Below, piece after piece: positions 4,801-23,383 of a stretch of 41,301 nucleotides of DNA. The notes below the pieces were generated by a model. It saw only the letters and a list, made by a program, of their open reading frames with translations, had not been told where the DNA came from and did no database searches. This DNA comes from Vampirovibrio sp. Lineage in GTDB: Bacteria > Cyanobacteriota > Vampirovibrionia > Vampirovibrionales > Vampirovibrionaceae. Every line of letters starts with the position of its first letter. Position 1 is the first letter of the stretch. The stretch spans positions 1-41,301 of the forward strand of contig DAIDMR010000230.1 in NCBI GenBank assembly GCA_027448865.1, read 5' to 3'. A program made the position numbers and the translations under genes.

Positions 4801-4827
4801 AGTTTTAAAATAAAAGAGGCAAATTTT

Positions 4828-5094
4828 ATGGATGTTTCAGGTATTTATGAGACGTTAAGCCCATTGGAGAAGGTCTATTGGGCTCAACTGGAAGCCCTGT
4901 TCAGACGGGTTGAAGCCCGCAGGCCCGAAAAAGGGATTGTCGCATTGATTTTCAGGGCCCGAGCGTTGGTCGCTCATCAAAATATTCCGCTGGAACAGGC
5001 TTTGGCGGATACTCTGGAAGGCGCTACCCAGCGAACCGAGCGACGGATAGCCCTTTTAAAGCAGTGCCCGCTGAAGTCGGACTCAGTACTTTAA
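4828..5094 (+). CDS. hypothetical 88-aa protein between two hairpin repeats
   Basis: ATG ORF preceded by aaaagaggc. Confidence 0.5.
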   Translation: MDVSGIYETLSPLEKVYWAQLEALFRRVEARRPEKGIVALIFRARALVAHQNIPLEQALADTLEGATQRTERRIALLKQCPLKSDSVL

Positions 5095-5120
5095 GGGAAT
5101 GCGCAGGGCGAATACACATT

Positions 5121-5284
5121 CAATTATGAGGCAAGACTGCCTTCCCAACACGTTTCTAAAACTGCGTGCAGCTCAGACAAACCCAGGGTGCTTTTGGCAA
5201 AGATGCCCAGCCTGAAGTTTTAACTCGCTGTATTCATACAGTTACAAACGCGTTGGGAAGGCAGCCTTGCCTAATATTATTGAG
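5121..5284. repeat. long imperfect inverted repeat (hairpin element), copy 2
   Basis: 5' arm aggcaagactgccttcccaacacgtttctaaaactg pairs with 3' arm cagttacaaacgcgttgggaaggcagccttgcct. Confidence 0.7.
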
Positions 5285-5362
5285 ACAATAAAAAGTTGAT
5301 GCTTGTTGTCGCAAAGTCTTTTTCATATACTGTAACGCAAGAACAGGAAATTTCTGACTGTC

Positions 5363-5434
5363 GGGCGCATAACTCAGCGGTAGAGTGCCACCTTCACACG
5401 GTGGAAGTCGTAGGTTCAAGTCCTACTGCGCCCA
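5363..5434 (+). tRNA. tRNA-Val (anticodon CAC), intact; left attachment site
   Basis: 72-nt cloverleaf: acceptor GGGCGCA/TGCGCCC, D arm ACTC/GAGT, anticodon stem CCACC-TTCACAC-GGTGG (anticodon CAC), T arm GTAGG-TTCAAGT-CCTAC. Confidence 0.9.
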
Positions 5435-6618
5435 TATTTTTAAATCCCGAAACGCCTCACTCCCACAGGATTTTAGAGAATCCGGGGAGTTTTTTAGTTT
5501 CTGAGGATTCTCAATCTCAAAGCGGCATTTCTGCTAAAAAGAGCCAAACTTCCACAAAAGTTCAACATGTTTCGGGGCTACTTTCTGTAAGCCAGGTCAG
5601 CGAAAAGCTGGGTGTTTCTTCCATGACTGTCACACGCTGGTGTGAATCTGGAAAACTTCCGGCCACGGCCAAACCTTACGGTAAGAAAATCAGCTGGTTT
5701 ATTAGTCCTTTGGCTTTGGACATGCTGGCCCGTGAGGAAAAGATTGAACTTGAAGCGAAAAAAACAAAAAACATCAAGCCCCACAGTGAATATATGGCTC
5801 AATGGGTTCAGGCTATGGCCACCGGCACGCTGAATGGCAAAATCTACACAAAGCGTTCAATTGAGGAATATGTCCGCTATGTCAGGGCTTATCTGGAGAA
5901 TCATGCCGTGGTCACCGCTTCCGGGCTAAAATCTGAGCTGATGAGCATTCCTGCCGTGATGTTCGCCAAACGGGAAAAATATTACAAGGGTGTTCTATGC
6001 TTTGCTAGGTTCCTAGTGCAATGTGAATTTCTGGAACCTGAGTTTTTAAACTCAATCAAACCACTATTCCCAAAGCGCCATTTACCCCCCAAAAGAACCG
6101 TGGTGGATGAGACGGGGGTTGAAAACCTATTGATGGCCTGTAAAACAGTTCAGGAACGCTTAATAATCCTATTGTTAGCTCACACTGGCCTACGGGCAAG
6201 TGAGGCATGCTCCCTGGTGTGGGGGGATGTCGATATGGAGCAAGGCTTTATTGTTGTTCGCTTGGGCAAGGGGAATAAAACCCGCAAGGTTGGCATATCT
6301 GCTCGATTGATGGAGGCGTTACAGGATCAAAAGCAAGCCACTTGTCACGTTGGGACTAAACCTGTCCTGTTGGATAAGCATGGGCAAGCCATGCACCGGA
6401 GTGGTCTACTGCAAAGGCTCAAGCGTTTGGGGCGGATGGCCAGTGTTATAGTTTCCCCTCATGCCTTGCGCCGGGCCTTTGTGACTATCAATGCCAATAA
6501 AGGCCGCCCCCTGGTTATCTTGCAACGCTCTTGCGGACATTCTGACATCAAGACGACCATGAGCTACTGTCGGACGGCTGAGCAGGAGGTCATCGAGGCC
6601 ATGAAAGGGTGGGATTGA
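5434..6618 (+). CDS. int: tyrosine recombinase/integrase, body (intC) of a gene split by integration; N-terminal MerR/excisionase-like HTH plus catalytic domain
   Basis: LLSVSQVSEKLGVSSMTVTRWCESGKLP HTH; catalytic HTGLRASE (R), GKGNKTRKV (K), PHALRRAF (HxxR), CGHSDIKTTMSY (H, Y). No ATG/GTG/TTG in frame from 5434 to 5622; the frame is open through the tRNA back to 5296. Confidence 0.9.
   Translation: MFLNPETPHSHRILENPGSFLVSEDSQSQSGISAKKSQTSTKVQHVSGLLSVSQVSEKLGVSSMTVTRWCESGKLPATAKPYGKKISWFISPLALDMLAREEKIELEAKKTKNIKPHSEYMAQWVQAMATGTLNGKIYTKRSIEEYVRYVRAYLENHAVVTASGLKSELMSIPAVMFAKREKYYKGVLCFARFLVQCEFLEPEFLNSIKPLFPKRHLPPKRTVVDETGVENLLMACKTVQERLIILLLAHTGLRASEACSLVWGDVDMEQGFIVVRLGKGNKTRKVGISARLMEALQDQKQATCHVGTKPVLLDKHGQAMHRSGLLQRLKRLGRMASVIVSPHALRRAFVTINANKGRPLVILQRSCGHSDIKTTMSYCRTAEQEVIEAMKGWD
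5550..5568. promoter_or_regulatory. candidate arm-type integrase-binding site (P' side)
   Basis: TTCCACAAAAGTTCAACAT, 18/19 identical to 23222-23240 TTCCAAAAAAGTTCAACAT across the att core. Confidence 0.5.
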
Positions 6619-6649: not shown

Positions 6650-6967
6650 ATGAAGCCGACTTACGACCTAAAGCTTGTTAAAGAACTGATCCGCAATGGA
6701 CATTATCGAATAACCCTTCGGGCTCTGAGCGACGCTCAAAGTGACTTCGATTTTGATGCGGAGAGGATTTTGGAAGAAATTCTCGGGCTAAAACTACAAG
6801 AGCTAGACAAGACTATGCCTTCAGAGAAAATGCCAGATCTTTGGCAGGATGTTTACAAAAAGCGGGTCATCGTCCATGCCAGAGTCCAAACGGCCTATAT
6901 CAAGCTCAATATTGTAAGGCCTAGTAATAAAGAGACAGCCGTTGTGATCTCGTTCCACAAAGCCTAA
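6650..6967 (+). CDS. mqsR: MqsR-like toxin
   Basis: LQELDKTMPSEKMPDLWQDVYKKRV...AYIKLNIV...AVVISFHKA resembles MqsR (DFYKSM...WQDVYRPRL...YLKITV...LIVSFKE). Confidence 0.75.
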   Translation: MKPTYDLKLVKELIRNGHYRITLRALSDAQSDFDFDAERILEEILGLKLQELDKTMPSEKMPDLWQDVYKKRVIVHARVQTAYIKLNIVRPSNKETAVVISFHKA

Positions 6968-6986
6968 AAGGAAAGGAGCCAAACCA

Positions 6987-7472
6987 ATGAGCAGAACAAC
7001 TGACAAGGTAAAAGCAATGGGTGATTGCGCGGTTTGTGGCGCCTCGACTCTCTTGGTGGTTGTGCCCGAATGGGAGGTTCCCGGCTCCGCCACAAAGCCT
7101 GCCGTGGTTGTCCAGGCGGTTGAGTGCCTTGAATGTGAAAGCTGCGGGGAGCGCTACCTGGAGCCTGAGCAAGTCCGTGCTTTTGAGAAGAAAGTGATAG
7201 AGGCTCAACGTGCTGCAAAGAACCTGCTCAGTGCGGCAGAGATTTTGCAAATTCGTGAGTCTTTGGGCATTAACAAGGAGCGCCTTGAAAAAATCCTGAA
7301 TTTAAACCCAAAATCTTTCTACCGTTGGGAAAACAGCCTGTCTATTCAATCTGACGTAGTGGACACGATGCTGAGAATCCTGCGTAAGAACCCAAACGCA
7401 GTTTATGCTTTAGCGGAAGAGCGGCATATTCCCCTAACCGCATTAAAAGGCCGCCCTAAAAAAGCTGGATAG
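6987..7472 (+). CDS. mqsA: MqsA/YgiT-like antitoxin (zinc finger + HTH)
   Basis: CAVCG...CLECESCGERYLEPEQV zinc-binding N-terminus and HTH LRESLGINKERLEKILNLNPKSFYRWE-type C-terminus, directly downstream of the toxin. Confidence 0.8.
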   Translation: MSRTTDKVKAMGDCAVCGASTLLVVVPEWEVPGSATKPAVVVQAVECLECESCGERYLEPEQVRAFEKKVIEAQRAAKNLLSAAEILQIRESLGINKERLEKILNLNPKSFYRWENSLSIQSDVVDTMLRILRKNPNAVYALAEERHIPLTALKGRPKKAG

Positions 7473-7479
7473 CCAAGAA

Positions 7480-7512
7480 ATTTCATGGGGCGCACTCGAA
7501 GCCCCATGAAAA
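7480..7512. terminator. bidirectional terminator-like hairpin between convergent TA operons
   Basis: TTTCATGGGGC-gcactcga-GCCCCATGAAA. Confidence 0.55.
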
Positions 7513-7522
7513 CAGGGATAGA

Positions 7523-7858
7523 TTAGGCTTTTGCCCCTGAAGCGTCGAGTTTCACTTCTAAATGAGCGCCAAGCACTTTAAGAATGGCTCGGATATTCGA
7601 CCACTTGGGGTTGCCTTTTTCTGACAGTAAATCATAGATATGCTCCCGTGAAACACCGGCCACGGTAGCCACTTCCGCCATGCTCAGGCCATAGGCTGCC
7701 GCTACATGCTTAACGGCTATCAGGAAAGCTGCTGGATCGTCATCTTCAAGAGCTACATTCAGATAAGCCTGGGCTAATTCAGGATCTTCTTTTAAGGATT
7801 GGTGAAGCCCCTCATCATGAAGAACAGAACGGGGTGGTGCTTTCTTTTTAGTGGCCAT
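7523..7858 (-). CDS. HTH antitoxin (HigA-like addiction module antidote)
   Basis: HTH MAEVATVAGVSREHIYDLLSEKGNPKWSNIRAILKVLGAHLEV; paired with the RelE/HigB-like ORF. Confidence 0.8.
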   Translation of the reverse strand: MATKKKAPPRSVLHDEGLHQSLKEDPELAQAYLNVALEDDDPAAFLIAVKHVAAAYGLSMAEVATVAGVSREHIYDLLSEKGNPKWSNIRAILKVLGAHLEVKLDASGAKA

Positions 7859-8189
7859 CGTTTCGGCTCCTGTAATCTTTTAAGTAAGTCTGGGCTTTGT
7901 TAATGTCGGCTTGTTGCCCATTTTTTGAGCCTCCCAGTAGGAGAAGAACAATTTTTTCACCTTCCAAGCCGTAATAAACTCGGTAGCCAGGGCCAAAATT
8001 CAGCTTGAGTTCAAAGACTCCGCCGTCTACACTCTCGGAAACACCAAAATTACCGGCTTCCATTTTGGTAACACTGTTCATGATTCGGGCCTTGGTGAGC
8101 TTATCCTTGATAGTGTTTAGCCATTCGGTGTAAGGTTCATGGCCTTGAGGCGTAACGTAGCGCTCAAGTGTTTTAGCTTGACCTTGCAT
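7848..8189 (-). CDS. RelE/HigB-like toxin (addiction module killer, Gp49-like)
   Basis: FELKLNFGPGYRVYYGLEGEKIVLLLLGGSKNGQQADINKAQTYLKDYR motif; overlaps the antitoxin start. Confidence 0.85.
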   Translation of the reverse strand: MQGQAKTLERYVTPQGHEPYTEWLNTIKDKLTKARIMNSVTKMEAGNFGVSESVDGGVFELKLNFGPGYRVYYGLEGEKIVLLLLGGSKNGQQADINKAQTYLKDYRSRNDGH

Positions 8190-8246: not shown

Positions 8247-9575
8247 TTAAGGCATTAGTTTTTCCCTAAACTTTGTCAAGTGAGGCACGAACAGAAGGGG
8301 GATCTCCATCTGGACGCCATCCCGCTGTTTGGCGATAGTCAAAGAAGCCACCCCGGTTGGCTTACGGTCTTCCATGCGCTCAATGCTGGTGAAAAGCACA
8401 ATATCGCTGTCCATTTCAATGCCGCCTGAGTCTCTAAGGTCGGAGAGCATGGGCTTCTTGTCCTGCCGGGCATCCACCGCCCGGTTCATCTGGGCCAGTT
8501 GGATAATGGGCACTTGAATGGTTTTGGCCAGAGTCTTTAAACGGCTGGTGATGGCCTGAATTTCATAGGCCCGGTTCTGTTGCTTGCTGTTGGGCTCTGA
8601 GGCAATCAAACCAATATGATCCACCACTATCAAGGCCAAATCAGGCCGCCGCTTTTTGGCTTTCATGATTTTGGACTGAATGGCCGCCAAGGTTTGACCG
8701 GCGGCATCCTCTATCATGAGATCCTTTTGGAACGGCTTCCAAGCAATGGCCGCTATCTTCAAGGCGTCCAAGTCTTTGGGGTTGCCTGCCTTAGCCTTGA
8801 TGGCCCGCTTCATTAACTCGCTGGCGGTCATTTCCAGGCTGATATAAAGCACCGGCTTCCGCTCTTGAAGCACCACATGACAAGCCACGTTCAACGCAAA
8901 AGCGGATTTACCCCCACCGGGTCGGGCAGACACGGTGATCAACTGCCAGGGCTGAAAGCCGTGGGTTGAATTATCCAGTGTGGGGAACCCCGTGGATAAT
9001 CCGGTAACCCCATTGGGACTGTTGGCCTCCGCTTCAAGCTGTTGAATGGCCTCCTCAATGGGATCGGATGTCCCCATAGTGTCGGTGGGGAAGGTTTCCG
9101 ATATTAGGTAAAGTAGATTTTCCGCCTCTTCCAGATAGGTGGACTGTTCCCGCTGGGCTGCTGAGTCGGCAATATCCTGACAGGCCAGAATCACTTCCCG
9201 CCGCCGGGCCAGATCAATCAAGAGCTTTGACCAGTGCTTCAGGCTGGCATCATTTAGAACTTGGACATCGGGATTGCTGCCAAGCATTAAATCATAGAGA
9301 TAGGCTGACCCTTCGGCTATGGCCAAGCTGCCGGAAACCTCCAGAGTCTGGGTTAAGGAAATGGGCTCTATAGGGACTTGCTGTTCAAAGCAGTCCAGCA
9401 TAGCCTGAAAGATTGCCTGATGAACGTTTGAGTAAAAGTGTTCAGGCTGAAGCAGGCCCACCACTTGGGGAAACAAAGCAGGATATTGCAGTAGCCCACA
9501 GAGAATGCCCTGCTCTACCGCCACAGAATGAGGAAGACGTTCAATTGGCTGAAGCTCTGTCTCAAAATCATGCAT
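8247..9575 (-). CDS. dnaB: replicative DNA helicase DnaB-like
   Basis: LITVSARPGGGKSAFALNVA (Walker A), LIVVDHIGLI (Walker B), MLSDLRDSGGIEMDSDIVLF; N-terminal PHSVAVEQGILCGLLQYP. Start taken at MHDFETE. Confidence 0.92.
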   Translation of the reverse strand: MHDFETELQPIERLPHSVAVEQGILCGLLQYPALFPQVVGLLQPEHFYSNVHQAIFQAMLDCFEQQVPIEPISLTQTLEVSGSLAIAEGSAYLYDLMLGSNPDVQVLNDASLKHWSKLLIDLARRREVILACQDIADSAAQREQSTYLEEAENLLYLISETFPTDTMGTSDPIEEAIQQLEAEANSPNGVTGLSTGFPTLDNSTHGFQPWQLITVSARPGGGKSAFALNVACHVVLQERKPVLYISLEMTASELMKRAIKAKAGNPKDLDALKIAAIAWKPFQKDLMIEDAAGQTLAAIQSKIMKAKKRRPDLALIVVDHIGLIASEPNSKQQNRAYEIQAITSRLKTLAKTIQVPIIQLAQMNRAVDARQDKKPMLSDLRDSGGIEMDSDIVLFTSIERMEDRKPTGVASLTIAKQRDGVQMEIPLLFVPHLTKFREKLMP

Positions 9576-10545
9576 TTGAGGGCTCCTCCAGGCAGCCTTC
9601 CAGGTGGGCGACCGGATAATAATCAAAGGTCTTCTTGTGGCTCAATCCGCTGGGGGATTCCGGGCGAATTTCGAGTTCCTCTGAACGAAACCATTCGGGG
9701 GTGTACTTATGCCGGATGAATGGGAACTTTAACAAAGCCTCTGATTGGCTGCTCAGATCCTCGATGGCATGCGTTTTTGGTGCTTCGGGTGTCCAAGCCT
9801 CTAATTTATTTTTAAGCGTCGTTTTGAACCACTGGGGCGCTGTTGCGTTTTTGGACACCGCAAGATCGCAAGTGTCTCGCCATAACCGAAGGATTTCCGG
9901 TTTGGGAATATCGGGTTTGGTTTTTGCCAGTTCCTGAAGTTGGATTTTCAGGAATCCCTGAATCCACCCAGTGTTTTGATGATTGGGGCTGTTTAGGGAG
10001 GACAGGTAAAGCATGCCCTCCTGAGCCAATGCTTGGTTGGGGTCTATTTCATTTTCCAAACCGATCACACTCACACCTGAACCGATAGGTTCGGATTGCA
10101 GGTTAGAGTTTAAGGTTAAAGGGTTAAGGGTTAAGGCCGGGCTCGGCATCGCCTTGGTTGTGCTTAGGCACTGCCTAGGTTGTGCCTCGGCATCACCTAG
10201 GTTTGCCTTGGAAATTGGACAGGGTGGAATCTCGCTCTCTGCCTCACGGATGTGTGGTTTTTGATGCTTATGGAAGTTCTCGATTTGAATAAACTTCTCC
10301 CCTTCGATCTGGTAACGGGTGATAAACCGGCCTGAACTATCAGCAAGTTCATTTAAGAGAGGTTCTATATCAATGGCTTCAAATGGGAACAGTTCGGCCT
10401 TTATTTTTAATGGCCGGTCTTCTAATCGGCCACGGCGATCAGCAAGCAGCCATAGACCTGCAAATAATAAACGGGCATAGGGGCTCACCTGAACCAGAAA
10501 TTCGTTTTTATAGAATCCTGGCTTTAAAAGTCTGGCTCTGGCCAT
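9568..10545 (-). CDS. phage replication-initiator-like protein (replication protein O / replisome organizer type)
   Basis: N-terminal MARARLLKPGFYKNEFLVQVSPYARLLFAGLWLLADRRGRLEDRP typical of phage replisome organizers; overlaps dnaB start. Confidence 0.7.
   Translation of the reverse strand: MARARLLKPGFYKNEFLVQVSPYARLLFAGLWLLADRRGRLEDRPLKIKAELFPFEAIDIEPLLNELADSSGRFITRYQIEGEKFIQIENFHKHQKPHIREAESEIPPCPISKANLGDAEAQPRQCLSTTKAMPSPALTLNPLTLNSNLQSEPIGSGVSVIGLENEIDPNQALAQEGMLYLSSLNSPNHQNTGWIQGFLKIQLQELAKTKPDIPKPEILRLWRDTCDLAVSKNATAPQWFKTTLKNKLEAWTPEAPKTHAIEDLSSQSEALLKFPFIRHKYTPEWFRSEELEIRPESPSGLSHKKTFDYYPVAHLEGCLEEPSNA
10101..10208. repeat. iteron cluster inside the initiator gene; candidate replication origin
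   Basis: GGTTAA-type 7-8 bp repeats (10101-10136) followed by three tandem 22-bp units 10143-10164, 10165-10186, 10187-10208. Confidence 0.5.
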
Positions 10546-10576
10546 TGGGCAAAATCTCCAACAGGTTCGGAAAATA

Positions 10577-10594
10577 GGAGGGCCGAAGCCCTCC
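10577..10594 (-). terminator. stable hairpin with cUUCGg loop (minus strand)
   Basis: Minus strand GGAGGGCttcgGCCCTCC between two minus-strand genes; no strong T-tract. Confidence 0.35.
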
Positions 10595-10646
10595 CTGTTC
10601 CGTGATAATATGTGGGTAACTTAAATTTGCTTCTAACGGTCGTAGG

Positions 10647-10829
10647 CTAATTGCCTGCGGCTTTTGTTTTACTGCCCTTGGGCTTTGGCTTCCCGGAGTT
10701 GTGGATGTGAAACAAGCCAGCTTGCATCAGGTGGGCATAGAGCTTCGACTCACGGAAGTCCTGCCAGGCTTTATCCTCCAAGGGGAGGTAAAGCTTCAAC
10801 TCAGCGTAAGGCTTTGAAAACTTGGACAT
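10647..10829 (-). CDS. hypothetical 60-aa protein
   Basis: ORF in the tightly packed minus-strand operon. Confidence 0.5.
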   Translation of the reverse strand: MSKFSKPYAELKLYLPLEDKAWQDFRESKLYAHLMQAGLFHIHNSGKPKPKGSKTKAAGN

Positions 10830-10831
10830 GG

Positions 10832-11089
10832 TTATTGTTCCTCTCTCTTATGCGCTTTCAACCACTCACCGAGGAAGGCCCCGGCTTGAAGCATTTCGTA
10901 AACGTCCACCTCTTTGTGAGGATCTACATTCATCAGGCAAAACCCCTCAAAGAAGGTGAAATGGGCGATTTCAGTAATGGGCTCTAGGGTGTCCGCCGCA
11001 TGCTCCAGTTGCTGAAACTGGTCGGGGTGTTCAGCTTGTAAAATGCGGACAAATTCGCTGGGGCCCGAAGGCAGGAAATAGGTTTTCAT
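10832..11089 (-). CDS. hypothetical 85-aa protein
   Basis: ORF adjoining neighbours in the operon; preceded by aaggagcaccacc on the minus strand. Confidence 0.6.
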   Translation of the reverse strand: MKTYFLPSGPSEFVRILQAEHPDQFQQLEHAADTLEPITEIAHFTFFEGFCLMNVDPHKEVDVYEMLQAGAFLGEWLKAHKREEQ

Positions 11090-11101
11090 GGTGGTGCTCC
11101 T

Positions 11102-11311
11102 TTAGTTATTGGTTGGACTTTTAAATTCAAGGACTTTGGCGGGTTTGTGTTCGGCGGCACGGCGGGCCATAACCTTCTGATGAAGCTGGGTAATGTTTTC
11201 TTCAAAGATTGCCATTGCAGCTTGCAGGTCACCGACTATCTTTTGATAACTGCTGTTTTCCTCTGCCGTCATCTGCTCTTCGAGCAGATTTTTGAAGATT
11301 CCTTCACGCAT
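11102..11311 (-). CDS. hypothetical 69-aa protein
   Basis: ORF overlapping the upstream gene end. Confidence 0.55.
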   Translation of the reverse strand: MREGIFKNLLEEQMTAEENSSYQKIVGDLQAAMAIFEENITQLHQKVMARRAAEHKPAKVLEFKSPTNN

Positions 11312-11930
11312 GATTAGAGTCCTCTTTTTGGTTTTTGAGTTCTGATAACGGTCGTAAAATGCCTTCCCGGTGCAGGGTGTGAACTCTTACGGTGTACCGG
11401 TGCCCTTCATCTCTTAAATGAGGCTTTACATCTGCCCGAAAGCTCCAGCCAAACATTTCAATTCGAGTTTCCAGTCCGGCCAGTTCTACATGAGCAAAAA
11501 TGTAACCATCGGCAAGGTGGGTAAAACGGTTGGTTTTACTGATTTTCAGCCTGAGGCTTTCTGATTTACTAGATTTAACATCCAGCTTCAAGCCTTCCAC
11601 TACAACGTCATAGCCACCATCTGTTCCTTTAAGCCCAGCCAGAAACTCAGAAATGATTTTTTCTGCTGTAAACCCTAAGTAACGTTGAACGGCTATTTCC
11701 CCCAATAGGCCAATATAGTCGGCTTCTGGGTTCCACCGTGAAGTGGTTTTCCAGTCCCGTTTCCTTAGCTCAGACACCTCTCGGATAATCTCAGACGCAT
11801 CCCTAGAGAATCGCAGAATGGGTCTGTCACCTTCAAAAATGTAGCTGGATTCGATGGCAATCTTGAAAGCCTTTTCCCCCCTTGGGGTAAGCCCCCGAAA
11901 GCCGGGCCGGATGGTAATCAATTCAGACAT
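11304..11930 (-). CDS. PD-(D/E)XK nuclease-like protein
   Basis: GLLGEIAVQRYLG...GTDGGYDVVVEGLKLDVKSSK resembles the E...D...DVK signature. Start taken at MSELITIRPG with aaagga upstream. Confidence 0.5.
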   Translation of the reverse strand: MSELITIRPGFRGLTPRGEKAFKIAIESSYIFEGDRPILRFSRDASEIIREVSELRKRDWKTTSRWNPEADYIGLLGEIAVQRYLGFTAEKIISEFLAGLKGTDGGYDVVVEGLKLDVKSSKSESLRLKISKTNRFTHLADGYIFAHVELAGLETRIEMFGWSFRADVKPHLRDEGHRYTVRVHTLHREGILRPLSELKNQKEDSNHA

Positions 11931-11977
11931 AGTTCTATCCTTTATTTCTTGGTTACAGGGGTGAATTTTCAAAGTAC

Positions 11978-12012
11978 AAAAGCCGCCTCACGAATGTGTC
12001 AGACGGCTTTTT
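11978..12012. terminator. terminator-like hairpin within the minus-strand gene cluster
   Basis: aaaagccg...cggctttt. Confidence 0.6.
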
Positions 12013-12088
12013 GAAAGGTCGCTGAGCATCAATCACTCGGTGACCTTGTTATCTCATTTAAGGTTGAGGGAATCAGGACTGTAGAAGG

Positions 12089-13051
12089 TTAGATTTGGGT
12101 AGTTTTCGGGTAGCAATTTTGCTCTATTTCCCAGTCTAATCTTATTTTCCCTTGATTTAATCTCAGTAGAATATGACCAGGCACAATCCTTTTAAAATCT
12201 GACTTGATGGCATTGACCTGCGCTTTGAATTGGTCACAATCCATTTCCAAGTCTCTGCTAAGAGTGTCGATATCAGCCGTGCCACCCTTTTCAATCAAAC
12301 TTTTTAATAGTTTGTGCTTATCATAGCCTCTTCTCAGAAACGGCTGTTTACCGAAGTAGACCTGTGGCTCTTCAAATTCATCAAGACCTATGTAGAAGGT
12401 GTTTGAACGGTTGTTTGGACATTGCTGCTCGTTTTGTCCAGATTGGTTGAGGGTGTTTTCTCCCTCAGCAGGGGGTAAATCAATATCAGCAGTGGCTTCC
12501 TCAATTTTGAGGTCGTTGGTTTCTGTGTCCAGTAAGTTTCCGGTCAGTTCGCTCAATCCCTCGAAAAAGCTTTCTGCCTCAAAATTCAACCACCAAAAGC
12601 CTTGGATCATTGAATCTTTGAAAAGGGCGACTGCTACAATTCGACAAAGACCCTCTAGTTCGGATTCTGAAGGAGATAGCGTAATGTCTGAGAGGTTCAG
12701 GAAAGCTAGGACACTTCGGCTTAAAATCTGTTTTAAGTAGATAGGTGCTTCTACAGGGTAGCCTTTAATCCTTTCGGGGAGTGATTGAATTACAAATTCA
12801 AGAAATTCTGGTTGAAAAGCTTGCCACTGAAGGGGGCCTTGGTTTTTGAATCTCTCTATTGCAAGGTCGTCAAAATCCCGATAAACCATCAACACAAGTT
12901 TTCGGGCGATGTTTTGTTTTTGCTCGTCGGACAAATTTTCAAGGGAGGGTAAGTCAATAAACGGCAATGCGACTTTCAGGAAAGCCAGCTTCCAGTCTGT
13001 GGCCGTTTTCAGGTTCCAGATAGATAGATCGTTTGATGGGGCTTGACTCAT
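12089..13051 (-). CDS. unknown protein with a possible C-terminal winged-helix domain
   Basis: Long ORF; C-terminal KLLKSLIEKGGTADIDTLSRDLEMDCDQFKAQVNAIKSDF looks wHTH-like. Confidence 0.6.
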   Translation of the reverse strand: MSQAPSNDLSIWNLKTATDWKLAFLKVALPFIDLPSLENLSDEQKQNIARKLVLMVYRDFDDLAIERFKNQGPLQWQAFQPEFLEFVIQSLPERIKGYPVEAPIYLKQILSRSVLAFLNLSDITLSPSESELEGLCRIVAVALFKDSMIQGFWWLNFEAESFFEGLSELTGNLLDTETNDLKIEEATADIDLPPAEGENTLNQSGQNEQQCPNNRSNTFYIGLDEFEEPQVYFGKQPFLRRGYDKHKLLKSLIEKGGTADIDTLSRDLEMDCDQFKAQVNAIKSDFKRIVPGHILLRLNQGKIRLDWEIEQNCYPKTTQI

Positions 13052-13120
13052 TAATAGCCGTCCTCGTGGCTCTTTGACCTTTGCGTTTTGGGAAATCTTA
13101 CGGGCGCAAATCTGCGCCGG

Positions 13121-13585
13121 TTACTTTTTCTTTGACCTGATTAAAACTTCGCCTTCCTCCTCATCCTCCCAGGAGATCAGTTTAAAATCTTTTAAAACCT
13201 CGAAAATCATATCCAGGGCTTCTTCTGGCCTGACCTTATCTAAGTCCGCAAAGAAAAACCCGCCAATATCCACCGCCAAGTCAAACCGAAATGCGATGTC
13301 CTGTCTGGCTTTCTTCTCTGGGAAATCAACCTGCCGCCAAGTTACATAATCATTGCCTTCCACCGGCTTAAAGTACTTCAGAATGTCTTTAAGCCAAGCG
13401 TCGAACTGCTCATAAAACTCGCTGTCTTCATAAGATGTGTCTGTGGACTTGAGATAAATCCACCGGGCATCGATGAACTTGCGCTGAGCCTTCCCTTTTT
13501 CAACCAACAGGCAGGGAATATCCAGCAATTTGTCATTGAACTGAACGTAAACAGGTTTTTTCTCTGGGGGTGGGGGCTTGGTCAT
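13121..13585 (-). CDS. hypothetical 154-aa protein
   Basis: ORF in operon, abutting its neighbour. Confidence 0.65.
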   Translation of the reverse strand: MTKPPPPEKKPVYVQFNDKLLDIPCLLVEKGKAQRKFIDARWIYLKSTDTSYEDSEFYEQFDAWLKDILKYFKPVEGNDYVTWRQVDFPEKKARQDIAFRFDLAVDIGGFFFADLDKVRPEEALDMIFEVLKDFKLISWEDEEEGEVLIRSKKK

Positions 13586-13822
13586 TTAATCAGCCTTTGG
13601 CTTGGGTTGTTCTGCCAGCTTCTCTTTGAGGGATGCAATAAAGCCATCAAAGGCCACGGCGTCCAGTAGCTTCATGGCCGCTTGATCTTCTGGGTTTGGC
13701 CACATCAAGGCAATTGCGGCATCCCGATCCCGTTCGGCCAAGGCGATAAACTCGGCATCGGTTAGTTCGGCAACGGGTTCCGCCAGACACTCCTGAATAG
13801 GTGCTTCCTTAACAAGGGACAT
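13586..13822 (-). CDS. hypothetical protein, tandem paralog of the 13809-14072 product
   Basis: DAEFIALAERDRDAAIAL...AFDGFIASLKEKLAEQ matches LADFVTLAQHDRKTALQV...AFDGYVVFLNERQAKQ. Start taken at MSLVKEA. Confidence 0.6.
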   Translation of the reverse strand: MSLVKEAPIQECLAEPVAELTDAEFIALAERDRDAAIALMWPNPEDQAAMKLLDAVAFDGFIASLKEKLAEQPKPKAD

Positions 13823-14072
13823 GCTGTTTCTCCTGCTTGGCTTGGCGTTCATTCAAAAAGACAACATAGCCATCAAAGGCCTGCTCTAATAAAGGACGGT
13901 TGGTTTCATCCAGGTAAGCAGGGGGAACGTCTTTCATAAAGACCTGAAGGGCAGTTTTCCGGTCATGCTGGGCCAAGGTAACAAAGTCCGCCAAGTCCAT
14001 GCCCAGATTGTCCTGAGTCAGGCATCCCTGATCCTCTGGCATGCTGATGGCAGGATCATGCTTATCGCACAT
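13809..14072 (-). CDS. hypothetical protein, tandem paralog of the 13586-13822 product
   Basis: See paralog; ATG directly abuts the upstream stop at 14073. Confidence 0.6.
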   Translation of the reverse strand: MCDKHDPAISMPEDQGCLTQDNLGMDLADFVTLAQHDRKTALQVFMKDVPPAYLDETNRPLLEQAFDGYVVFLNERQAKQEKQHVPC

Positions 14073-14219
14073 CTACAAGTCTCCCTTGAAAGCATCTTCT
14101 TTCCGCCGGGCTTCTTCCTTGGCCTTGAATCGGCCTTTATTGTTCCCTAGGAAGCGATTTTGAGTGCACATAGTGCAACGGACATTGCGGCGGGTTTTCT
14201 TGCGCTTGAAATTGGCCAT
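14073..14219 (-). CDS. 48-aa basic protein MANFKRKKTRRNVRCTMCTQNRFLGNNKGRFKAKEEARRKEDAFKGDL
   Basis: Below track cutoff; stop abuts the next ATG; CxxC and many Lys/Arg. Confidence 0.5.
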   Translation of the reverse strand: MANFKRKKTRRNVRCTMCTQNRFLGNNKGRFKAKEEARRKEDAFKGDL

Positions 14220-14254
14220 AGCTTGGTCCTGTCTCTTAAAGGCTCTTTGGTAGA

Positions 14255-14521
14255 TTAGCTGCTACGGAGAAACCAGTAATGGTTTCCTTCGCGGTTATTT
14301 TCCTTATGGAAAGAATAAAATTCGTTGGCTGCCTCAGAGGCACTCATATCTTCTGGAATGCGTTCACTGGCAAACATAGCATCATCCATGAAGATAAAAG
14401 CTCCGGAAGCTGAGATTTCATGTCGATTTTTTAATGCCTCATCTGGTTCTAGGGTTTGGTTAATAGCGTTAGCCAGGAACATTGTTTGAACAATCATCAA
14501 AAATTGAAGGGGCTTACTCAT
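14255..14521 (-). CDS. hypothetical 88-aa protein
   Basis: ORF in operon. Confidence 0.5.
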   Translation of the reverse strand: MSKPLQFLMIVQTMFLANAINQTLEPDEALKNRHEISASGAFIFMDDAMFASERIPEDMSASEAANEFYSFHKENNREGNHYWFLRSS

Positions 14522-14537
14522 TCTGTTATTTACCTCT

Positions 14538-14747
14538 CTAGTTTTCTAAAAAAGCTTCTTCAGGGTGTTTTTGTAGGACTTCAACGGCAAGGTCTATAAG
14601 TTCACCAATGCTTTTGTCGGCCTCTGCCTTTTGATTTTCAAGCCAAACCTTAGTTTCGGGTGCTACTCGGCAGGTAAGAGTCTGTCGTTTTAAGTCATCT
14701 GAGATCGCAGGCCTGCCACCACCTCTCCATCCACCTCTAGGGGACAT
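14538..14747 (-). CDS. small ribbon-helix-helix-like protein (69 aa)
   Basis: MSPRGGWRGGGRPAISDDLKRQTLTCRVAPETKVWLENQKAEADKSIGELIDLAVEVL resembles RHH/CopG-like regulators; first gene of the minus-strand operon. Confidence 0.5.
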   Translation of the reverse strand: MSPRGGWRGGGRPAISDDLKRQTLTCRVAPETKVWLENQKAEADKSIGELIDLAVEVLQKHPEEAFLEN

Positions 14748-14939
14748 AAAAGAATCCTCTTTGTTTTTTGTTATTCAAATATTCTACAGAGTTAAAATCA
14801 ACTTATAAAGCTTTTTATAGTTTTTTGCATTGCTAATATTAAGATTTTTAAATATTTGTTTTTCGTGTTGCGTAAAACAAGATGATGGGCTATATTCTTA
14901 TTGTTAAATGCAATGCTTTAAACATAAAGGCTTATCAAA

Positions 14940-15119
14940 ATGGAACATCTGCAAGACCAGCATTTAAATGAACCCCGTGACACCTGGACACCGTGGCAGG
15001 CTGATGAGGAAATGCTGTGGGGCATCCTGACCGGCCAACTCTTCCCCCCTGCCGATGAGACTCCGGTTTGGGTGGATGTGGTGATGCCCACTCCCTACAT
15101 TTCGGCTTTGGCCGCATAA
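14940..15119 (+). CDS. 59-aa protein MEHLQDQHLNEPRDTWTPWQADEEMLWGILTGQLFPPADETPVWVDVVMPTPYISALAA
   Basis: ATG ORF just below track cutoff, first on the plus strand after the AT-rich divergent region. Confidence 0.4.
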   Translation: MEHLQDQHLNEPRDTWTPWQADEEMLWGILTGQLFPPADETPVWVDVVMPTPYISALAA

Positions 15120-15351
15120 AAAGAGCCCTTGAGATAGAAGCTCCCAAGGACTCAAGTCCAATCGCAAAGGTCAATCATTGAAAGGACAAAACAAGCCTAA
15201 CACGAAACCCCGTAATCACACACCATCGTTAGAACATCAATAAGAGAGAGGTAGAGAGAGAATGCACCCCCAACCCGCTAACGGGCAAGCTTGCGCTGCC
15301 CTGAAAACCTATAACAGTCGCACCGAAAGCAACCCACAGGAGGAAAACACC

Positions 15352-16002
15352 ATGGCCTTGAGAGCCGAATCCCTGAAACCTGAATTAAATTTGCTGGTGT
15401 TACCTGGCACCCCATCCGACAATCTAAGTGATGAAGACTGGGCTGAAAAGGCCTTGCGTTCAAAGCTGCCGATTGAGCGTTTAGAGTTTATGCGCCAAAT
15501 GGTGGCCCGGCATCCTGAGGAGCAAGCGCAACAGGCCCGCTATATTGAGCTGCTGGAAGGTCTGGTTCGAGAGTGGGAAGGGGATTACAGTAACCCGATT
15601 ACCAGCTATGGGGTGCTGGCTCACTTCCGGCAACTGCCAGAGGATGTTTTTCTGGAGCGCTTGGGCGCTGTCTTCCAGAAGGCAAAAATCAAGCTGAATG
15701 AAGACCAGGCTCGGGAAGCTCACCGGGATATGGTAAACATTGAATTGCCAGTGTTGCCTCAGCAGGAACGGGAGGCGCTTTATTTGCTGGGGGAAAGTAA
15801 CACCCCTACCCAGAATCGCATCTTTCTGGAACTGTTACAGGATATGACGGGGCAGCTCATTTTCGACTATTGCGACACGCTGGATCTTTTCGATGTTTTT
15901 GAGACGAAAGACTGGCTGGCGGAAACGGTCATTCAAGCCCTGAAAAGGTTGAGGCCCGATTTTCGAGAAATGCTAATATCCACCCTGAACGGCATGAAGT
16001 AA
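15352..16002 (+). CDS. unknown protein (216 aa)
   Basis: ORF start MALRAESLKPELN preceded by caggagg Shine-Dalgarno. Confidence 0.7.
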   Translation: MALRAESLKPELNLLVLPGTPSDNLSDEDWAEKALRSKLPIERLEFMRQMVARHPEEQAQQARYIELLEGLVREWEGDYSNPITSYGVLAHFRQLPEDVFLERLGAVFQKAKIKLNEDQAREAHRDMVNIELPVLPQQEREALYLLGESNTPTQNRIFLELLQDMTGQLIFDYCDTLDLFDVFETKDWLAETVIQALKRLRPDFREMLISTLNGMK

Positions 16003-16197
16003 GTCCTAAAGCGCCTGAATAGAAAGAAAGCCCACTGAGCTAAGCCGCTTGGTGGGCTTTCGAGAGGTCGGGGTAAAATTTCGATAACTGACTCGGAGAT
16101 TTTACCGAGTGCAATTTTTCGCTCAGCCTTCCTCTTTTTTACGAAGACGAAAATTCGATTTTCCTATAAAACACACTGCCATTGGGCCTTTTTAAAT

Positions 16198-16209
16198 TGA
16201 GAATTCTCA
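16198..16209. promoter_or_regulatory. palindromic operator-like site TGAGAATTCTCA, copy 1
   Basis: Perfect 12-bp palindrome within repeated tttaaattgagaattctcaca. Confidence 0.5.
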
Positions 16210-16264
16210 CACAATTAAATGGATCAATATATTTATGATATTGAGAAAACACTTTTTAGGTCAA

Positions 16265-16273
16265 TGCTATAAT
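16265..16273 (+). promoter_or_regulatory. extended -10 promoter TGCTATAAT
   Basis: Perfect TGnTATAAT upstream of the non-coding structured region. Confidence 0.55.
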
Positions 16274-16279
16274 TGGGTT

Positions 16280-16740
16280 CGGGCTTGCAAAGGTGTGTTT
16301 ACAGTACATTGCTGCCGCAGGCCAAAAGCAATTTAAATCTATAAAATAAAAACATGAACGGCCAAGTTAAGCCGCAGAGCAGGTGGGCGAGTGAAACGAG
16401 GACGGCTGCGAAGAGGCCCCGTCGAGCAAAGCGAGACCCTGAAAAGCTTACCTTTTTACAGTGTAAATAAAAAAAAGAAAAAGCCTACTTGATGCGTTCC
16501 CGCAGCGGAGCGAGGAAACGCATGCCTCACCGGGGAGGTGGTTCCCCTGGAAGGGGCGGAGGGGTAGTTTAACTGAAAACCTGTGATTGGGCCATCCTAT
16601 TTTTTAAACAGCCGAAAAATTTTAAAATTGAGAATTCTCACAAAAAACATCTAGATCGCCGCAATTTTGCGGAGACTATTAACCACCCCAATTTTGGGAG
16701 CGTTAGATTTAACAGCGGGCGTCTCCCAGTTTGAAGGCCG
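16280..16740 (+). ncRNA. candidate structured non-coding RNA region
   Basis: No substantial ORF; many stems: CGCAG/CTGCG, GTCGAGCaaaGCGAGAC, ATGCGTT/AACGCAT (16492-16523), CCCCtggaaGGGG, CCGCAATTTTGCGG, CCCAATTTTGGG, GTTA/TAAC enclosed by GGAGAC/GTCTCC (16671-16726). Confidence 0.4.
16629..16640. promoter_or_regulatory. palindromic operator-like site TGAGAATTCTCA, copy 2
   Basis: Same palindrome and flanks as 16198-16209. Confidence 0.5.
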
Positions 16741-16844
16741 GGTGAAATGTTTGATCGGATATGAAAAAAGGTTAATTGGCTCTAGTCAATAGGCTAAGAA
16801 CATTGGAGAATAAGGCTGACCTGAGGAACTATGGAGGAGCATCT

Positions 16845-17015
16845 ATGAAGCAATTGGATAAAGAAATGGACGCAATCGACTCATTGAACATGGTTTTAAA
16901 CCGCATTGCATCGAGACTGCCCTTTGATTACCCCGACCTTTATGAGCGCTACCTAAAGCGGTGGCACCCGGAAGATTACGAGGCTTACAAACGGAGCCAA
17001 GAAACTCAAGAATAG
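16845..17015 (+). CDS. hypothetical 56-aa protein
   Basis: MKQLDKEMDAIDSLNMV... with ggaggag upstream of ATG 16845; the longer ORF from 16776 is less likely. Confidence 0.55.
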   Translation: MKQLDKEMDAIDSLNMVLNRIASRLPFDYPDLYERYLKRWHPEDYEAYKRSQETQE

Positions 17016-17027
17016 AGCCAGCTTAAG

Positions 17028-17063
17028 ACAATCTTAAACTTGCTCACTTGGGTTTAAGATTGT
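17028..17063. terminator. 12-bp perfect inverted repeat hairpin
   Basis: ACAATCTTAAAC-12 nt-GTTTAAGATTGT; no T-tract, so terminator status uncertain. Confidence 0.35.
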
Positions 17064-17114
17064 ACGCTTATCATTAGGAATGATTAGAAATGGCTGAGTG
17101 TGGGAGTAAAGTTC

Positions 17115-17252
17115 ATGGGCAATATCCACGATTACACTGACAGCTTGGTTCGTTTAGTTTCTCAGTTTATGACGGTCTGCTCTGTGGATCCTGGCATTTC
17201 TGAAGCTGAATATCAGTCGATTCGAGAGCGTTTGTTAAGGGCCATGATCTAA
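17115..17252 (+). CDS. hypothetical 45-aa protein MGNIHDYTDSLVRLVSQFMTVCSVDPGISEAEYQSIRERLLRAMI
   Basis: ATG ORF below cutoff, convergent with the 17253 gene. Confidence 0.35.
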   Translation: MGNIHDYTDSLVRLVSQFMTVCSVDPGISEAEYQSIRERLLRAMI

Positions 17253-17714
17253 TTAAGCCTCTTTCATGGCTTCTTTTTGCTGATTCAGAACGACTGTGTG
17301 AATCCGATCCATCGCCTTTACGGCCACATCGGCCAAAGCAGCCAAATCCCGATCTTTGAGAGGCGTTTCATCGGCCAGCCGGGCATTGATGCGCTCAATC
17401 AACTTACGAAGTACACCGCTGGACTCTGTGAGCAGTGCGGCCAACTCGGTCACGTCCTGGTCAAGCGCTCTGTTAATCTTTTCCTGCCGCTCTTCCAGGT
17501 AGGCTTTCACACCCTCGTCAATGCGCTCCTTATGAGCGTTTATAATCTCACGCACCGCCTGCCGGGAATAACCGTGGCGTTTCATTAACTCCCCAATGGT
17601 CAGGCCAGCAATGCGATCCTGAACCACCTTTTCATGCTTGCCGGTTTCTTTGACCGACTGCGCTTTTGGCGTTGGCTTCTTGGCTTTACTTTTTATAGTT
17701 TTGTCTTTTTGCAT
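17253..17714 (-). CDS. HTH protein; possible terminase small-subunit-like
   Basis: HTH DRIAGLTIGELMKRHGYSRQAVREIINAHKE followed by coiled-coil-like helices; TerS assignment tentative. Confidence 0.5.
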   Translation of the reverse strand: MQKDKTIKSKAKKPTPKAQSVKETGKHEKVVQDRIAGLTIGELMKRHGYSRQAVREIINAHKERIDEGVKAYLEERQEKINRALDQDVTELAALLTESSGVLRKLIERINARLADETPLKDRDLAALADVAVKAMDRIHTVVLNQQKEAMKEA

Positions 17715-17863
17715 GCTTATGCCGCTTTATGCCCTTCTCGCTCGGCTTTGAAATTGACTCGCTCACTGTACATCCCCTTTGCGAAAACGCTTTCGACAAT
17801 GGAAAAGAAAAGCCCCACCCACAATGAGGCCGTAGCGTAGTTATTAAATAGGGCGTCACTGCT

Positions 17864-18433
17864 TTGAAATTAGCAGAGATTATGCTTGATCGTGGCATGA
17901 CTGATTCTGAACTTGCCAAAGCCATAGGCGTTCAGCAATCAACCGTTTTCCAGTGGAAAGCAGGCGGCTTTTCTCCTAAGGCAAAGAGTCTGTTTAAGCT
18001 TTGCGACGTTTTAAATTGCTCCACCAATGAACTGCTTGGGTTCAACTCTGTTGATGTGTCTTTACCCGACTATCAAGGACAGCGCCTTTATGACGCCGTT
18101 ACTCAAGAAGGGCATTTTGATTCCCAGTTGATTCATATTTTTGCAACCCGGATCCGCAAATTTGCTGGGAAAGCCACCAGTCTTGAAACGTGGATGAGAC
18201 ATATTGCGGAAGCTCTCTATGAAATAGAACTCGCCAAGAGCGATCCTGCTTCCCTCTCCAACGCTCCTCGGGGCTTGGTTGCTGTACCGGATCAAGAGAC
18301 TGCCGATATTACTCAGCGCAATTTTGCGCCTACTTTTGTAGTGGAAGCATCTGATGTCAAGCCGCTCAGTCTGAGAAAGATTGATCGAAAGCGGCGTAAA
18401 AAAGCATTGCGCTTTAAATCTGGTAAAAACTGA
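17864..18433 (+). CDS. XRE-family transcriptional regulator
   Basis: MTDSELAKAIGVQQSTVFQWKAGGFSPKAKSLFKLCDVLNCSTNELLGF HTH. TTG 17864 or ATG 17881 start. Confidence 0.75.
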   Translation: MKLAEIMLDRGMTDSELAKAIGVQQSTVFQWKAGGFSPKAKSLFKLCDVLNCSTNELLGFNSVDVSLPDYQGQRLYDAVTQEGHFDSQLIHIFATRIRKFAGKATSLETWMRHIAEALYEIELAKSDPASLSNAPRGLVAVPDQETADITQRNFAPTFVVEASDVKPLSLRKIDRKRRKKALRFKSGKN

Positions 18434-18517
18434 AAGCCATTGGCCTTCTTTTGCCCGCCTCTCAATGAAAAAGCGGCTTTATTCTTTGCTCAATTGCAAA
18501 GCGTAAGGTGCTGATTC

Positions 18518-21500
18518 ATGACTGAAGAAAAAATAGCGATAAGTTACGAGGCCAAAGGCGTTGGTCAGTTTATAAAGTCCGCCAAAGACGCTGAGAAGGC
18601 TTTGCGGGAAGAGGCCAAGGCGCTGGATGTGTCAGTCAATCAGATTCAGAAGCGCATCATCGAATTAAAGAAGTCAGGCACGGCCAGCCAGGCACAAATT
18701 CGGGCCTTGCAACTAGAAAGCCAAGCCCTTCGTTTAAATTCCGCAGACTTGAAAAACCAAGCCGCTGCACTTAACCAACAAGCCCAAGCCGCCAAACAAG
18801 CCCTTCGTCCTGCTGAAGATCTGACCAAAGCATTGTTAAGCCAAGGCGTGGCCGCTGTTGGAACCGGGGTGGCTTTTGCGGGTTTAGGCGTTGGATTATC
18901 GAAAGCAATCACTGGGTTTGGAGACTTTGAGCGGACGCTGAACACCATTAAGGCAGTGTCTCAAACCACGGCTGGGGAGCTAGATGCTATCAAGCGCTCA
19001 GCCTTAGAACTGGGTGCTAAAACCATCTTTTCCAATCAGGAAGTGGCAAACTCTTACCTGGAATTAGCTCGGGCCGGGTTTACCACTCAGGAATCCTTGG
19101 CCGCTATGCCGGGTTTGCTCAGTTTGGCTGCAGCCGCTGGGGGTGATCTGTCCTCCTCTGCTGAAATTACAGCCGGGATTCTCAGGGGCTTTAACCTAAA
19201 CGCTTCTGAAGCGGGCCGGGTGGCTGACGTGTTAGCCCAAGCCGCCAATGTGTCCGCCGGTGAAATTGGAGACTTTGGGGCGGCCCTGAAGCAATTAGCC
19301 CCTGTGGCCCTCAGCTCTAACCAGTCCCTTGAGGATTTATCCGGCTTACTGGCCGTTCTGTCTAACCGGATGATTAATGGAGCGGATGCCGGAACCGACT
19401 TGAAAGCGGTTCTATTACGTTTGGTAAGGCCAGAAACACAAAAAGAACTCAAAGCCTTAGGGTTAGAAGTCACCGACACCGAGAAGCGCATTAAGCCGCT
19501 GATTCAGATTATTGGAGAGTTTCAGCAAAAGTTCAAAACCCTGAATCAGGCTGGACAGCTTGAAGTCGCTGGCAAAATTGCAGGCATTGAAAACGTAAAA
19601 TCCCTTTTGACCCTGATTAACACGGATAAAGGGGAGCTGGAAGAGTTCATCGCCAAAATGAAATCAGCGGATGGGGCCGCTGCCTCTATGGCTGCAACCA
19701 TCAATCAAGGGGTGAACACCTCCCTTGAGCAGTTTGGCGGCTCGGTGGAAACGCTTGCCTCTAAACTAGGTGAAAAGCTGGCTCCTGCGTTTACCGCTGT
19801 TGTGGACACCGCCACGGATCTATTTACTGCCTTGGGTAGTAATGACGGCTTGCAAGCCTTCACCATTGGGGCTGCTGCCGCTGTGGTGGGTGTGGGTAGC
19901 TTGGTGGGGGCATTAAAACTGATCCCGCCTGTGATTGAAGCTGTAAAAGCAAGCTCCCTTGCTCTTTCCGTCGCCTTGGGCATTGAAACCGGGGGACTGA
20001 CTTGGGTCATTGGTGGGCTGATTGCCGCCGGTGGGGCGCTGGGGGTGATGTACCAGCAGCAATCCGAGAATCAGCGCCGCATGGCTCAAACCACTCTGGA
20101 ACTTAGAGGAGAAGTGGATCAGCTTACTGAATCTCAGGCTCAAGAGGCTTTAAAAACAATCAAGCTGGCAAAGGAATATGATGAGCTGTCAAAGAAGAAA
20201 AACCTAACCAGCAGTGAAAGCCAGCGCTTAGGGGATTTGGCCGATTTTCTAGTGACTCAATTAGGCGTTGAGGGAGAATCGGTTGATCAGCTCACTAAAA
20301 AATATGGTTCTCTGACAGCGGCCATTCGGGAGAAAACCATCGCTCAGCTTGCCGAAAAAAGACAAGAGGCTCTGACTGAAAAACTGAAACAAACACAGGC
20401 CGATAGAAAACAGGCTGGCTTAGATGTACAGGCGGCTCAAGGCGCGGAAGGTAACTTCTTTAACCTGATTTACGGGCCAGATGGCAAGCTGGTGACAGGA
20501 AAGGCTCGAAGGAAACTCCTTAGCAGCCAGACAAGAAAAGCCAAAGAGACGCTGGAAAGGCTGAAGCGAAAGGAAGAGTTTGAAAAAGATGCTATCCTTT
20601 CGGCCTTGGATGACACACGAAAGATTGTAAGCGCCACGGAGAATCCACCCAAAAATCCAGCGCCTAGCAATTTTGGCAATCAAAATGCCCCAAGCTCTGG
20701 GGGAAGTACCAAGAAGCCCCGGCAAGGGCGGTCTCAAGATTCTGTTGAAAGACGGCAAGTGAGTGACATCCTCAAGGGACAGAGCGCCTTTACGGCCAAC
20801 CTGGACGCCAATGAAGCATTATTCAAAGCAAACCTTGGGCCGGAGCCAACACGGGTTGAGTTGGCGGCTATTGAAACTCGTAAGCTGGCACTTGCTGAAA
20901 AAGAGTTGCTAGAAACCCAGAAACAACTGAACGCTTTAAATCCCAAAACGGAAGGGGGGCTTGAGGCCCGTAAAACCGCACTGGAAAATGTGGCCGCTGA
21001 GCTAACCAGAAACAAAGTGGCCACCAAAGAGTTGGAGAACGAGACAGCCCGATTCAACAAGACTATTCAGAACCGGGAGCGGGACTTTATCCAAAACCTG
21101 CAAGCCAATGGCGCTCAAAATGAGTTCAGCCAGCTTGCAGAGAATATCCAGCAGCGCCAGCAGGAGATTGAAACCCTTTATGATAAAGGCCTGATCACGG
21201 CCGAGGAATATTACGGCAGACTTGCAGAAGCCAGCAAGTTTCAAGCAGACGCTGAAATTAAGTTTATTGAGCAGCAAATTGCCGCTATTGACGCCCAGGA
21301 AGAAGCCCTAACCGGCCTTGAGATTGAGAACGGTAAGCTTTTAGAGCTTGAACAAAAGCGGGCGGAGCTGCAAGGACAAATCACGGTCAAGCTGAAACAA
21401 CAGCAAACCACCCAAGCCGAACTGAGCGCCAAGCTCACCAAAAGCCTAGAGGCTACTGGCGATAGACTGGGCAATGCCTTTGAGCAGCAGTTATCTAACG

Positions 21501-22926: not shown

Positions 22927-23221
22927 GCCAAAGTCACTGGGTAGGTTCTAGTTTTTCGGTAAGAAGCTTCACAAGCCTATTTTTAGGCAGGTAAAAGGGC
23001 TTTTATCCCTAATTTTAGAACGCTTTTGGATTTAAGCCCGCTAGAAAGCTTATAAGCAGGCGCTTCAAGTCTTGGCATGCCCTAACACCTAAAGTCTCGC
23101 TTGCGCTTCTTCCTGAGCCTCCTAGCATGGGGCAAAATTTAGAAGCCTTTGGTTACTTTTAGAAACTACTTACGCTTGCCCTGTGTTTTCGATTTCTTAT
23201 CAACGGGCCAAACAGGCCAAG

Positions 23222-23240
23222 TTCCAAAAAAGTTCAACAT
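23222..23240. promoter_or_regulatory. candidate arm-type integrase-binding site (P side)
   Basis: TTCCAAAAAAGTTCAACAT, 18/19 match to 5550-5568. Confidence 0.5.
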
Positions 23241-23266
23241 TTAAGCAAAGGTCAGGAGAAACCAAA

Positions 23267-23383
23267 ATGGCAAAACGCACGCCAGATGCGCATAACTCAG
23301 CGGTAGAGTGCCACCTTCACACGGTGGAAGTCGTAGGTTCAAGTCCTACTGCGCCCACCACTCTGTTACAACAAACAAACTAA
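23267..23383 (+). CDS. intN: N-terminal fragment of the split integrase (start codon + core peptide), running into chromosomal sequence
   Basis: caggag SD 8 nt before ATG 23267; MAKRTPDAHNSAVECHLHTVEVVGSSPTAP in the same frame through the core as intC; followed here by host-derived TTLLQQTN-stop. Confidence 0.75.
   Translation: MAKRTPDAHNSAVECHLHTVEVVGSSPTAPTTLLQQTN
23288..23357 (+). repeat. attR: 70-bp tRNA-Val direct repeat lacking the first two acceptor bases
   Basis: Identical to 5365-5434; 5' bases AT instead of GG disrupt pairs 1-72 and 2-71. Confidence 0.92.

Follow-up and report, generated by a model that had tools for sequence, protein, structure and literature searches.

Repeats flanking a tRNA-embedded att core are probable arm-type sites of a self-split tyrosine integrase gene in a Vampirovibrio element

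The window analysed here is a 41,301-nucleotide stretch of a Vampirovibrio sp. contig, in which tRNA-Val(CAC) has been called twice by ARAGORN, at 5363-5434 (the functional gene) and at 23286-23360 (a displaced copy). Within these lie two identical 70-bp att cores, at 5365-5434 and 23288-23357 respectively; these and the integrase, arm, promoter-like and hairpin features described below are all on the + strand. In a sister species (G003) the site is empty, the window flanks 4807-5434 and 23288 onward being contiguous at a single intact tRNA-Val (82% identity over 642 bp and 87% over 1337 bp), which indicates that the 17.9-kb stretch between them is an inserted element. A long inverted repeat directly upstream of the tRNA, at about 5120-5280, is present in the sister species too. 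The element encodes a tyrosine integrase with an HTH_17 domain, and its relatives have been found in Vampirovibrio and Vampirovibrionales MAGs. Two neighbouring toxin-antitoxin pairs, MqsRA and a RelE/HI1420-like pair, lie beside the integrase (6650-8189), and the stretch 8247-22870 encodes a DnaB-type helicase, a phage-type replication initiator and a tail tape-measure protein. The element proteins scanned included no recognisable capsid or large terminase, and the element appears to be either a remnant or satellite-like. Viral contigs contained no close relative by protein and four weak partial matches by profile, and in phage records the top-ranked match has 29% identity.

The integrase gene is divided between the two ends of the element. 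Its start codon and N-terminal codons (intN, 23267-23357; MAKRTPDAHNSAVECHLHTVEVVGSSPTAP..) lie at the right end, in frame through the core, with a conserved leader GGTCAGGAGA..ATGGCAAAA at 23250-23275 that holds the SD and the ATG at 23267. The remainder of the ORF (intC, 5435-6618) contains the HTH domain at 5578-5733 and the tyrosine recombinase catalytic domain at 6103-6585, the latter assigned by PF00589 (E 2.3e-30) and by alignment with relatives. No in-frame ATG, GTG or TTG occurs from the core to the ATG at 5623, inside the HTH, and leftward of this domain the frame contains no start codon as far as the tRNA or across it, the first being a TTG at 5296. Joining the right end to the left end yields one int ORF, from ATG 23267 through the core to 6618. 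Such a restored ORF, with an SD and a start codon (seven ATG, one GTG), is found in all eight split elements with both ends located. In the order as a whole, the int frame passes through a tRNA or tRNA copy in 15/21 HTH-bearing loci (one through a partial copy), with nine isotypes represented (Val, Asp, Glu, Gly, His, Pro, Ser, Arg and Ile); there is no tRNA passage in G010:C94, G010:C166, G014:C33, G007:C5, G013:C167 and a remnant in G002:C10. Of the 18 genomes of the order, 4 have the intN leader pattern, each a single time and always at the right end of such an element, and its reversed control gave zero matches; none of the viral contigs carries the pattern, so that no free form with an uninterrupted int gene was seen there. 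The more distant integrases of the class mostly begin beyond the att core and remain intact. One locus (L043) has a full tRNA 1 kb upstream of int and a partial tRNA copy at int. In three loci (G003:C9, L044; G014:C33, L056; G007:C5, L057) the HTH integrase has a second integrase of its family beside it in tail-to-tail arrangement, HTH-less, which might carry out excision when the first gene is split.

The sequence-only reading had proposed that 19-bp direct repeats lie on both sides of this core, and the two copies were confirmed at 5550-5568 (TTCCACAAAAGTTCAACAT) and 23222-23240 (TTCCAAAAAAGTTCAACAT), on the same strand and identical at 18/19 positions. With up to three mismatches allowed, the 19-mer pattern has just these two matches in the 41,301 bases, against 0.05 expected, and two matches were reached in 0/100 shuffles of the window. 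In the 2.69-Mb draft genome the two copies are the sole exact matches to the repeat, and at up to three mismatches there are 6 matches (four extra, with 2-3 mismatches) versus 3 for a reversed-pattern control. The upstream GCCAA, also said to recur, was seen at 5543-5547 and 23216-23220, separated from TTCC by a 2-base spacer at the left copy and a 1-base spacer at the right. Each 19-mer is composed of two heptamer half-sites 11 bp apart: TTCCACA (5550-5556) and TTCAACA (5561-5567) in the left copy, TTCCAAA (23222-23228) and TTCAACA (23233-23239) in the right. The left copy lies within the integrase reading frame, as codons for ..T-S-T-K-V-Q-H.. just ahead of the winged HTH, with its half-sites in two different int reading frames. 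The right copy is non-coding and ends 13 bp ahead of the intN SD (AGGAGA). In the excised circle the copies are in direct orientation around the core, as had been claimed, 47 bp before it and 115 bp after it.

Comparison with related elements indicates that these repeats are very probably arm-type sites of the element's own tyrosine integrase. From 20 + 20 fetched stretches, the 160 bp preceding the core (right arm) were compared with the stretch from core to HTH (left arm) for their best 20-bp match, in both orientations, against 500 dinucleotide shuffles of the left arm; loci with a left arm and no located second end (L043, L044, L047, L050, L051, L052 and G10C94) and a further set (L056, L057, L059, L060, L066, L067, L069, L071, L073, L076, L080, G13C167 and G29C34) were left out of this test. 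In 6/8 split elements a direct match was found that was reached by 0/500 shuffles, with 18 of 20 bp in the window and 19 each in L042, L048, L049, L055 and C309; the match was not above shuffles in L045 (14; 272/500) and G7C29b (13; 493/500). The absence of the repeats from close relatives, which had been named as evidence against the proposal, was thus not what was seen, matching flank repeats being present at equivalent places in these six. In the outgroup the match is inverted, reaching 0/500 shuffles in 5/9 elements (L068, 19; L070, 17; L075, 16; L078, 17; L079, 17), with L072 at 16 (1/500), L077 at 16 (8/500), L058 at 16 (11/500) and a weak L074 at 15 (46/500). The left arm is inverted in 9/9 outgroup elements, and orientation thus differs between lineages: the earlier proposal of arm sites has gained matching arms in relatives, while the direct orientation it took as expected is lineage-specific. 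When right arms were crossed with the left arms of other elements, the own partner was best or tied-best in 6/8 split and 9/9 outgroup elements. The motif itself varies between elements (TTCAACA, TTGGACA, TGAAACC and others), yet it agrees between the two arms of one element.

The domain proposed to bind these arms is an excisionase-type winged HTH, with the recognition helix SSMTVTRW. It is matched by PF12728 (E 1.2e-8; 35.5 bits against a gathering threshold of 27) and by PHROG excisionase families, and scores 24.7 with TIGR01764, under the 28.8 cut-off. AlphaFold2 on 5 sequences gave a winged HTH with pLDDT 83, and the nearest Foldseek matches to the model were RacA, the phage Pukovnik Xis, BldC and MerR proteins, with a best E of 2e-3 (to RacA, Xis and BldC). 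According to the available part of one report, proteins of this class bind head to tail with about 10 bp per protomer, a geometry that 11-bp half-sites would fit (PMC11963761).

Across elements, the motif follows the recognition helix. Methionine or isoleucine in the helix occurs with CAACA in 7/7 cases (the window, L042, L043, L047, L049, L045 and the remnant), and lysine, with arginine three residues on, occurs with GGACA in 7/7 (L055, C309, L050, L051, L052, G10C94 and L120); the Fisher p for this table is 0.0006, a value that takes no account of descent. A KT[IV]REW helix accompanies TGAAAC in 2/2 loci, L048 and L119, which have helix and motif in common despite different tRNA genes, and there are single cases of Q with CTGACAA (L044) and R with GGCCAAA (G7C29b). 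The rule held in 3/3 loci that were read after it was formed (L119, L120 and the remnant). On the integrase tree helix and motif never change opposite ways, with just 1 to 3 independent pairs on supported branches, too few for significance. The agreement between left and right arms of each element, together with a motif that tracks the helix, is the behaviour expected of sites read by the integrase itself; arm-type sites of the integrase are well supported at this comparative level, with its own excisionase-like domain as the probable reader. This tracking also bears on the alternative that the repeats are sites of a separate excisionase (RDF), with the integrase HTH a relic or otherwise employed. 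The excisionase character of the domain, in both its Pfam and its PHROG matches, is in keeping with that idea, and RDF sites too are described in att arms in the excerpted literature (PMC11963761); since the motif follows the integrase's own helix residues, and no separate excisionase was recognised among the element proteins scanned, it is nevertheless considered unlikely.

The position of the right copy raises the question of transcription. It had been suggested that this copy, lying just upstream of the intN SD, points to integrase autoregulation. The position holds, and an iteron read by eye lies directly upstream of the int SD in 7/8 split elements; the promoter-like match upstream of the right copy, TTGCCC-16-TATCAA (23176-23203), is weak, ending 15 bp ahead of the matched stretch and being equalled or beaten by 73 of 300 random segments. 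In the promoter scan as a whole, individual matches were mostly no better than random segments from the same locus. Autoregulation is therefore best regarded as plausible, as suggested by position. Were the repeats operators for int transcription only, with no role in recombination, the same placement before the SD would be accounted for; there would, however, be no call for a second, orientation-specific copy across the crossover, and the left-right match holds in the outgroup as well as in split elements (L045 and G7C29b excepted, L074 weakly), which makes this explanation very unlikely.

A further feature that may bear on expression is an intrinsic-terminator-like hairpin (5459-5490, -14.5 kcal/mol) with a T run, together spanning 5459-5495, immediately past the tRNA and within the int frame; 0/40 shuffles were as stable. 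A hairpin reached by at most 1/40 shuffles was found in 9/14 loci, with a weak one in L050 (6/40) and none in L045, L055, L051 and L052 over the 125 bp scanned. In ICEKp1, as described in the accessible portion of the report, stem-loops that follow the tRNA attenuate int while the element is integrated, and a promoter at the opposite end drives int after excision (PMC13023037). By analogy with that system, the in-ORF hairpin suggests that int may be expressed from the circle alone.

The spacing of the half-sites also indicates what has been conserved. The heptamer pair is exactly 11 bp apart in 12/15 split-type loci, a count made on heptamer words picked by eye beforehand; the exceptions are L049 (12 bp), G7C29b (19 bp) and L052 (a single heptamer). 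A step of 11 bp is not divisible by 3, so that a single gene reads the heptamer in two or three frames, and it is therefore the DNA, not the peptide, that is conserved. That the left copy is instead kept for its encoded peptide (T-K-V-x-H before the HTH), the right copy being a coincidence, is extremely unlikely: the last left half-site mostly keeps one frame, and many relatives have the peptide too, yet half-sites of one gene occupy several frames, outgroup arms lie outside the integrase ORF or at its very start, and the right copy matches in 6/8 elements while non-coding, partner copies of that kind already contradicting a peptide-only reading.

With the repeats taken as arm sites of the integrase, a working model can be proposed. 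Each arm would be a head-to-tail pair of half-sites of about 11 bp, read by the excisionase-like winged HTH on the N-terminal side, and the XerC/D-like catalytic part would act on the tRNA core between the arms. In the circular form the right arm would sit between a presumed promoter and the int SD and ATG, the ORF would cross the core, and the left arm would fall in coding sequence just ahead of the HTH codons. Docking of the integrase on both arms may bring the core into synapse, and integrase on the right arm may also damp its own transcription. Integration would then leave the remainder of int without promoter, SD and ATG. As an added step, translation from intN in the circle would keep the hairpin open.

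In phage lambda, arm sites are repeated to either side of the core, and the integrase binds them through an N-terminal domain distinct from its catalytic one. The present element resembles lambda-type att systems (lambda Int, Tn916-like elements and ICEMlSym IntS) in that repeated sites flank its core, and differs from them in its presumed arm reader, an HTH_17 excisionase-type winged HTH, in half-sites that recur at 11-bp intervals and in having one arm inside the int coding sequence. For ICEMlSym IntS, five arm sites (P1-P5) with the sequence TGKTGGTATC are given in the portion of the source available (PMC11963761). No direct case of a winged-helix arm-binding domain in integrases was found in the open-licence literature. 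The archaeal SSV-type suicidal integrases provide another parallel: as in those systems, attP lies within int and integration at a tRNA gene splits the gene. Unlike them, the enzyme has a PF00589 core without PF16795 (Phage_integr_3), which marks SSV-type enzymes and was not found in a Pfam scan at E up to 0.01 that gave PF00589, HTH_17, HTH_23 and AbiEi_4; moreover, the host is bacterial, only a short N-terminal piece is lost and arm repeats are present.

Phage 16-3 has its attP near the 5' end of int, and nothing on this phage was found in the open-licence literature. The myxophages Mx8 and Mx9 are bacterial phages with attP inside the integrase gene, as reported in the accessible parts of two papers (PMC6070905, PMC4383910). 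In Mx8 attP is at the 3' end of int, which is replaced on integration with the enzyme remaining active, as far as those parts describe it; here the core is at the 5' end, which is lost together with the SD and start codon. The position of the right copy would fit autoregulation of the KplE1 IntS kind, in which arm sites overlapping the int promoter are stated in the available text to repress that promoter (PMC2951348); the promoter match here is not above random. State-dependent int promoters are described for ICEKp1 and ICEclc, where int is driven from the opposite end after excision, again as given in excerpts (PMC13023037); in the present element, by comparison, the start codon also moves and the hairpin is inside the ORF.

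Relative to the open-licence literature, what looks new is that a 5'-split integrase gene, an excisionase-type arm domain and arm sites in coding sequence would occur together in bacteria. A 2021 review, in the part available, states that self-disrupting recombinases are exclusive to archaea (PMC8371274); set against that statement, the loci described here document bacterial cases in which an integrase splits its own gene at the 5' end, and they would make an excisionase-type winged HTH the arm-binding domain of an integrase. It is rare for arm-type sites to be assigned without biochemistry; in this case comparison alone links the arms of each element to the helix of its own integrase, with a candidate code of M/I for CAACA, K for GGACA and K..E for TGAAAC. 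A broader and more tentative reading, which may well not hold in all its parts, is that these elements form a bacterial family of self-splitting integrases, each with its own excisionase-type arm reader and with arm sites in several frames of its own coding sequence, in which the circular and integrated states act as a genetic switch. The SD and start codon would be joined to int in the circle alone, where the ribosome would keep the terminator behind the host tRNA from closing and silencing the gene, and a few helix residues would set the iteron that is read. If this joint reading is true, related elements in one cell would stay separate, since the helix residues set the iteron.

At one locus (G007:C29), two tandem elements, L049 and L063, occupy a single tRNA-Glu gene, and their integrases read the same tRNA sequence in different frames. 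Different motifs lie side by side there, the second element's own pair not being significant. L050 (G010:C166) has a run of three TTGGACA half-sites at 11-bp steps, at about 1588-1616 of the reversed stretch, and its upstream int frame is broken; an 11-bp unit gained within the gene would cause a frameshift.
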